Below, piece after piece: positions 5,014 to 49,867 of a stretch of 64,000 nt of DNA. This DNA comes from Candidatus Segetimicrobium genomatis. Lineage in GTDB: Bacteria; Sysuimicrobiota; Sysuimicrobiia; Sysuimicrobiales; Segetimicrobiaceae. The position numbers were made by a program, and so were the translations under genes. The stretch's first letter is position 1; each line of letters begins with the position of its first letter. Location: contig VBAK01000106.1 of the NCBI GenBank assembly GCA_005882275.1, positions 1 through 64,000 on the forward strand. Direction: 5' to 3'. The notes beneath the pieces were generated by a model. It was not told the origin of the DNA. It was given only the letters and a program-made list of their open reading frames with translations, and did no database searches.

Positions 5014-5048
5014 TAACAAAAGCCTCTCATGCTCTTCCATGAGAGGCT
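5014..5048 (-). terminator. Rho-independent terminator (or attenuator) after nfu, before acyl-CoA dehydrogenase
   Basis: A perfect 11-bp inverted repeat (agcctctcatg at 5021-5031; its complement at 5038-5048) has a 6-nt loop. On the minus strand it is followed by TTTTGTTA. It ends the erpA-nfu transcript. No clear new promoter is visible between the hairpin and the acyl-CoA dehydrogenase start at 4980, so partial read-through is possible. Confidence 0.8.
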
Positions 5049-5110
5049 CAGGGTACCTCTCAAACGCGCTTCGGGCGCGCAGGAGGCGCGCCCTCCGCAG
5101 GGCGAGACGA

Positions 5111-5380
5111 TCAGAACGGCGCGGCTTCGACCGCTTTGATCTCCGGAACCTGCTCCTTGAGCATCCGCTCCACGCCGGCCTGGAGCGTCATCATCGAGTA
5201 CATGCACCCGACACACGATCCGGCCAGCCGGATCTGCACGATCCCGTCCACGATATCGATGAGCTCCAGATCCCCCCCGTCCTGCTGAACGTAGGGACGG
5301 ATCTGGTCGAGCACCTTCTCGACCCGGGCGTGCAGGTCAGCGCCCGCCTGCGTCCCGGTCTCCGCGGTCTGCTGGTCCAT
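5111..5380 (-). CDS. nfu: NifU C-terminal-domain (Nfu-type) Fe-S scaffold/carrier
   Basis: 89 aa, essentially a single Nfu domain. It carries [20 protein letters not shown] and the cluster-binding CxxC in [21 protein letters not shown]. Nfu dimers bridge a 4Fe-4S cluster through the two CxxC motifs and deliver it to apoproteins. It lacks the degenerate A-type domain found at the N-terminus of E. coli NfuA. It is 26 bp after the erpA-like gene on the same transcript and is followed by the terminator at 5014-5048. Confidence 0.93.
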
Positions 5381-44962: not shown

Positions 44963-49492
<4,530 letters not shown>

Positions 49493-49576
49493 GGGCGACC
49501 CTCCTCGTTCTCCGGCGCGGTGCGCGGCGGGCCGCGCCGCCTCCTGCCCCCCGCCTTGCGCCCCGACTGCCTATGC

Positions 49577-49628
49577 AAAAAGCCCGAGGGAGCGATCCTC
49601 TGAGTGAGAGGAACCTCTCCCTCGGGCT
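49577..49628 (-). terminator. Riboswitch-controlled intrinsic terminator before gltB
   Basis: AGCCCGAGGGAG (49628-49617) pairs perfectly with CTCCCTCGGGCT (49592-49581), followed by five U (49581-49577). The 5' arm is also the 3' strand of the ykkC-type aptamer, so aptamer folding and terminator folding exclude each other. Ligand binding should therefore turn gltB on. Confidence 0.88.
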
Positions 49629-49720
49629 TTTATCCCGAAGGTGTGGCGCCGCGTGGGCTGCCCGTGCCGCTCGGTCCTGACCGGCCGCTCGTGGAGGCCG
49701 CGGAACCCTAGGCACGCTCC
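49605..49720 (-). ncRNA. ykkC-family riboswitch, probably subtype 2 (ppGpp or PRPP-like), upstream of gltB
   Basis: In transcript order: CGTGC then CTAGGGTTCCG (49711-49701); hairpin CGGCC/GGCCG; GGACCGAGCGGCACG (P1 closes CGTGCC with GGCACG, 49716-49711 with 49668-49663); then ACACC and GGGATAAAAGCCCGAGG (about 49635-49618). These are the conserved words of ykkC RNAs in the right order. The CCGAGCGGCAC form, with P1 closing directly, fits subtype 2 better than the guanidine class, whose word is CCGAGAG. Known ppGpp-class members control amino-acid biosynthesis, including glutamate synthase, which fits gltB. Subtype was judged by eye. Confidence 0.82.
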
Positions 49721-49837
49721 CTCTCGCGCCTGACGGCGGAATCGGGACTCAGCGATGCCGCTGATCCGCGTTCTACACGACCGCCGCCGGCCGAAAGTAT
49801 GGACCCGGACTCCATCTGCCGATCCGGATATTAGGAA

Positions 49838-49867
49838 ATTACTATCAAAAGACGAACAGGTTGTCAA
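49838..49867 (-). promoter_or_regulatory. Promoter of the gltB leader
   Basis: Minus strand TTGACA (49867-49862), then a TAGTAAT box (49844-49838) at 17-18 nt. Start near 49830 gives a leader of about 340 nt containing the riboswitch. The surrounding 120 bp are notably AT-rich for this genome. Confidence 0.68.

Follow-up and report, generated by a model that had tools for sequence, protein, structure and literature searches.

What senses the metabolic state ahead of the glutamate synthase gene in this genome, and in which direction would the signal act? The 64,000-nucleotide stretch analysed here (the window) stems from a draft genome with 93% completeness and 5.9% contamination, and carries on its minus strand a leader located between a nagA-like gene (51320-49992) and gltB (44963-49492). 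A preliminary description had assigned to this leader a promoter, a ykkC-type aptamer and an overlapping terminator. In all likelihood, the leader harbours a ykkC subtype-2a riboswitch that senses (p)ppGpp and acts as a transcriptional ON switch, a reading in which ligand binding, direction and physiology are deduced from RNA architecture and gene context.

The gene under presumed control is well defined. GltB, the large subunit of glutamate synthase, scores 1724 bits against NF008730 (cut-off 1047) and comprises four Pfam GOGAT domains, which confirms gltB as the target named beforehand. A Shine-Dalgarno sequence, GAGGAGGG, is located at 49499..49506 (minus strand), but the start codon is unusual: no ATG, GTG or TTG exists in 49573-49433 (minus strand), the segment delimited by the in-frame stop and by the Cys1 motif (CGVGF). 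The most suitably positioned candidate is ATC (49492-49490), six bases past GAGGAGGG, and same-genus relatives possess ATG near this position; the codon may be a rare AUC start, or the assembly may be wrong here. For the small subunit GltD, nothing exceeded the TIGR01317 cut-off in any of the 12 genomes of the family of G000, which points to a GltB that operates as a single-subunit, perhaps ferredoxin-dependent, synthase. Upstream, the postulated promoter (49839..49867, minus strand) consists of an exact TTGACA -35 element (49867-49862), a 17-nt spacer and a weak, TG-extended -10 element, TAGTAA (49844-49839). A strict promoter scanner called no promoter at the leader; the assignment comes from a comparison with relatives, as each of the 16 leaders checked in the order bears an exact TTGACA at a distance of 35-139 nt ahead of the aptamer segment.

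The three sequence words of the ykkC family reported earlier, CTAGGGTTCCG, GGACCGAGCGGCACG and GGGATAAAAGCCCGAGG, are present in this order on the minus strand of the gltB leader. A covariance-model scan of the region, proposed as a check in the preliminary description, was performed with cmscan against all 4227 Rfam families (801 bases) and retrieved RF00442 (Guanidine-I) at 49722-49615 (minus strand) over the full length of the model (1-107), with an E value of 7.3e-8 and 50.2 bits. As this score falls short of Rfam's gathering line of 63, nothing is listed when the window is scanned at gathering level. No other riboswitch family was matched at the gltB leader with E values up to 5, and no match to the purine riboswitch occurred in the window. 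The sequence and structure of the leader hence place it in the ykkC family, though below the gathering score, and it was also scored with two covariance models built from leaders of the order. R2, constructed from 29 sequences of the same order, all outside the window's own taxonomic family, scored 115.2 bits at this site (E 1.8e-25 over 64 kb), with a runner-up site at 15.4 bits. The latter (5045-5163, minus strand; E 0.08) probably represents a chance match. R1, constructed from 37 leaders of the order including the window copy itself, scored this copy at 122.7 bits, among the scores of its relatives. Together with the covariation detailed below, these matches delimit a ykkC subtype-2a (ppGpp-type) aptamer at 49606..49725 (minus strand).

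A guanidine-sensing RNA would be the literal reading of the Rfam match, RF00442 being the sole riboswitch family matched and four relatives exceeding its gathering score. A pyrimidine replacing A46 separates subtype 2 from guanidine-I RNAs (PMC6031431), and the window carries a C at this position (49669, minus strand; CCGAG[C]G), which corresponds to C49 of the PRPP aptamer. Guanidine-I RNAs have an adenosine there. Moreover, the RNA possesses a P0 helix and an ACAC...AGG pocket, and its targets belong to amino-acid biosynthesis, not to guanidine export or carboxylation, leaving guanidine with next to no probability as the ligand. RF00442, R2 and the marker residues thus uphold the assignment to ykkC subtype 2 made earlier. 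The Rfam Guanidine-I model half-detects ppGpp-type RNAs or mislabels them under the wrong ligand name, which constitutes an annotation hazard: four loci (L120, L121, L122 and L125) exceed its gathering score as Guanidine-I, yet at the key positions they carry the residues of ppGpp aptamers.

The secondary structure comprises four helices. P0, an add-on helix formed by 5' and 3' extensions as in subtype 2a, pairs GAGAGGGA (49718..49725, its last A being the equivalent of A5) over 8 bp with UUCCUCUC (49606..49613), the latter strand being common to P0 and the upper stem of the terminator. The P1 domain (49663..49716) contains P1a (49716-49711 with 49668-49663) and the words CTAGGGTTCCG and GGACCGAGCG. 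It is followed by the P2 hairpin (49645..49662), in which compensatory changes affect four of the six pairs across the order, and by P3 (49619..49641), whose 8 pairs (49641-49634 with 49626-49619) lack the bulged G96; the missing nucleotide would fall between 49623 and 49622. All these elements are located on the minus strand. In the alignment of 37 sequences, P0-P3 are paired in 91% of cells, as compared to 34-52% when the partners are slid by 1-3 columns, and changes on both sides occur in 18 of 38 pairs versus 9.1 in shuffles. For P0, 86% of cells are paired and five of the 8 bp display compensatory changes. With this strong covariation, the 37 aligned aptamers represent a ready set. In the window copy, P0 and P3 are fully paired, and RNAfold, applied without constraints to the 126-nt aptamer alone, predicted P0, P1 and P3 essentially as proposed.

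The ligand class depends on few residues, the numbers of which were assigned via conserved motifs and do not form one common coordinate system. Numbering via a T. mathranii sequence did not reproduce the published numbering and was replaced by motif mapping combined with gene context. The equivalents of A74 C75 A76 C77 are the ACAC at 49641..49644 (C75 at 49643), and those of the phosphate-contacting A103 G104 G105 are the AGG at 49614..49616, both on the minus strand (PMC6031431); the A-G preceding P1 is also present in the window aptamer. G96 is conserved in more than 97% of PRPP aptamers and is absent or replaced by a non-G in ppGpp aptamers, and in the G96A structure, the base-pairing partner of the ppGpp guanine is C75 (PMC6031431). 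In the window, the C at 49669 provides the pyrimidine expected of subtype 2a at the C49 position, nucleotide 96 is absent (CCC-GAG-GG spacing) and C75 is retained.

The diagnostic value of G96 was assessed with 118 named loci, collected from species genomes by pattern search, by parsing the motif beside the downstream gene. G96 was present in all 92 loci upstream of purine or nucleobase-permease-type genes and absent in all five upstream of glutamate-synthase-like, ilvE and acetolactate synthase genes. The purine labels derive from sequence clustering and recognition of representatives, with NCBIfam confirming FGAM synthase and the non-purine clusters; one cluster initially called leuA is actually acetolactate synthase according to NCBIfam. 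One G96-bearing, PRPP-like aptamer in a Chloroflexi MAG (L073, 3022-3100, minus strand) precedes a histidine-phosphatase-like gene and serA, with no obvious purine operon. Inspection of the G96-equivalent residue, likewise suggested beforehand, revealed that neither the window nor any of the 27 parsed loci of its order possesses it.

These residues bear directly on sensing of phosphoribosyl pyrophosphate by a subtype 2b RNA of the same architecture. Very few positions distinguish subtypes 2a and 2b, both of which have C49, ACAC, AGG and P0 (PMC6031431), so that discrimination falls to G96 and the linked genes: the former is lacking throughout the parsed loci of the order, none of the order's 44 loci precedes a purine gene, and G96-bearing loci are almost all located before purine or nucleobase-permease genes. 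PRPP is accordingly a very unlikely ligand. Thus, the earlier designation "ppGpp (or PRPP)" narrows to ppGpp, since G96 is absent and no purine gene is linked in the phylum; as judged from marker residues and context, the switch very probably senses ppGpp.

A closer competitor is a subtype-2 aptamer with shifted specificity, directed at a related nucleotide (pGpp, pppGpp or an NDP) instead of ppGpp. The column corresponding to the G79-C98 pair of the PRPP aptamer displays a G.G mismatch in most relatives and is unpaired in 30 of 37 rows, and the P3 pocket is therefore, at the level of the aligned sequences, not identical to the solved one. The lower P3, devoid of a bulged nucleotide and with this mismatch in most relatives, agrees with altered recognition, as does the finding that one substitution alters ykkC-family specificity about 40,000-fold (PMC6031431); furthermore, an NDP-sensing subtype 2c exists (PMC7266159). 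Against this stands the gene set of glutamate synthase, branched-chain biosynthesis and T-box tandems, which is that of the ppGpp class, whereas aptamers for nucleoside diphosphates precede NUDIX and HAD hydrolases (PMC7266159). A shift in specificity is hence considered improbable, and only a slight chance is likewise given to a P3 pocket that is remodelled across the phylum, lacks the bulge and favours a different alarmone, e.g. pGpp or pppGpp over ppGpp. If true, the latter would add a further ligand specificity to the ykkC scaffold.

The favoured ppGpp reading gains a plausible output from the intrinsic terminator at 49577..49631 (minus strand; -38.3 kcal/mol), in which 49631-49617 pairs with 49592-49578 and a U5 tract occupies 49581-49577. 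The uninterrupted stem consists of 11 pairs formed by GCCCGAGGGAG and CTCCCTCGGGC plus four A-U pairs running into the U5 tract. Of the perfect 12-bp terminator stem described previously, the terminator itself stands, but its length was undercounted, as the stem has 15 bp. Also correct was the claim that the terminator reuses the aptamer 3' strand: GCCCGAGGGAG represents the 3' strand of P3 and beyond, the upper stem additionally takes the 3' strand of P0, and the terminator is mutually exclusive with both helices. Upon addition of the downstream strand to the fold, the terminator prevailed (-80.0 versus -67.5 kcal/mol with P0 enforced), a predicted preference that fits, as expected, a default-OFF, ligand-ON switch. 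A generic terminator scanner did not call this terminator because of its long loop; relatives served to establish it instead. MicroRNA matches on the terminator hairpin were dismissed as inverted-repeat artefacts.

Three-way covariation links pair 82-94 of P3 with the corresponding terminator nucleotide: G82-C94 coincides with a terminator G in 17 of 37 leaders, A82-U94 with a terminator A in 12 and with a terminator G in 5, and the combination G-U-A in 2. This is the best evidence presented here that P3 and terminator alternate. As P3 and P0 both give up their 3' strands to the terminator, a conflict echoed in the three-way covariation, occupancy by the ligand is expected to turn gltB on. The ON-switch layout inferred in the preliminary description is thereby upheld by mutual exclusivity and covariation, from which the direction of control is deduced.

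A course of events can be proposed on this basis. RNA polymerase would start near 49832 and transcribe the aptamer in the order P0-P1-P2-P3. Without ligand, the downstream complement would capture the 3' strands of P3 and P0, generating the 11-15-bp terminator and halting transcription before gltB. Amino-acid starvation would raise ppGpp, whose guanine would fill the place of the missing G96 and pair with the C75 equivalent, its phosphates contacting the P0-proximal A and G as well as the AGG residues. Bound ppGpp would then lock P0 and P3, block the terminator and allow GltB to be made.

The aptamer is widespread in the phylum. A search with RF00442 in 61 genomes around the window produced matches in 33 of them, and R1 matched in 33 of the 43 genomes of the phylum (best E < 1e-19 in each), including 23 of 28 genomes of high quality. 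Among the ten genomes without an R1 match, six yielded no gltB match, one contains gltB at a contig edge, and three possess gltB but have a decayed aptamer or none before it. These three form a natural loss series: G002 (L169, about 1254-1353) retains a decayed aptamer of 28.8 bits before gltB, G022 (L171) and G019 (L172) contain no aptamer upstream of gltB, and in all three, the gene is still preceded by a TTGACA promoter and by a GC-rich hairpin that resembles a terminator and ends in T. Such decayed or aptamer-less leaders with a retained terminator provide a precedent for the window copy being a relic as well, i.e. an inactive aptamer before a constitutive terminator. The window copy, in contrast, keeps every pocket residue, scores among its relatives and has fully paired P0 and P3 helices, which makes inactivity extremely unlikely.

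Judged by tblastn, the genes downstream of the order's 44 loci encode glutamate synthase (gltB, 24), acetolactate synthase (15) and citramalate synthase (2), and two of the remaining three loci precede acetolactate-synthase-like proteins; purine genes were absent from this set. With gltB, the window copy thus has a target of the kind expected for subtype 2a (branched-chain metabolism, glutamate synthase or amino-acid transport), and a small regulon of glutamate synthase and branched-chain synthesis emerges in the phylum. At five loci (L123, L129, L131, L141 and L143), a T-box above the Rfam cut-off follows the aptamer by about 40-60 nt, before acetolactate-synthase-type genes; these tandems resemble the published ppGpp/T-box AND-gate and represent a two-input arrangement. 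RelA/SpoT is encoded by one copy in the window's own genome and is present in all 43 genomes of the phylum, so that the proposed ligand can be made. The lineage, represented by fragmented draft genomes, is presumably uncultured.

In the work of Sherlock et al. 2018 (PMC5912903), RNAs tied to glutamate synthases, to natA transporters and to branched-chain metabolism were assigned to subtype 2a and confirmed to be ppGpp riboswitches, and a review counts glutamate as one of the products made by genes that ppGpp activates (PMC7266159). The link to gltB, previously regarded as new, was therefore already listed for the ppGpp class: function, target and mechanism are known, and what is added is this member and its lineage. 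By this reading, direct RNA sensing of ppGpp would extend to a phylum-level lineage known here from genomes alone. As a separate observation, eight alphaproteobacterial ykkC variants (L003, L004, L025, L035, L041, L088, L105 and L111) whose 3' end resembles GGAGACGTCGAGA lie immediately before EamA-type small drug/metabolite-transporter-like genes and possibly belong to orphan subtype 2d.

Among known systems, the Guanidine-I riboswitch (RF00442) shares the P1-P3 scaffold and the core sequence words, but needs an A where C stands here, is devoid of P0 and has guanidine-related targets. The PRPP riboswitch (subtype 2b; T. mathranii, 6CK5/6CK4) shares the scaffold, the P0 helix and most contact residues, but has G96 and purine targets, neither of which was seen here. 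Closest is the ppGpp riboswitch (subtype 2a; Sherlock, Sudarsan and Breaker 2018), with which the gltB leader has in common the P0-P1-P2-P3 architecture, C49, ACAC/AGG, the lack of G96, the overlapping ON-switch terminator, glutamate synthase and branched-chain targets, and T-box tandems in relatives. It differs from this class by its occurrence in an uncultured phylum-level lineage, by a bulge-less P3 with a G.G mismatch in most relatives, and by a gltB product that seems to have no GltD partner in its genome.
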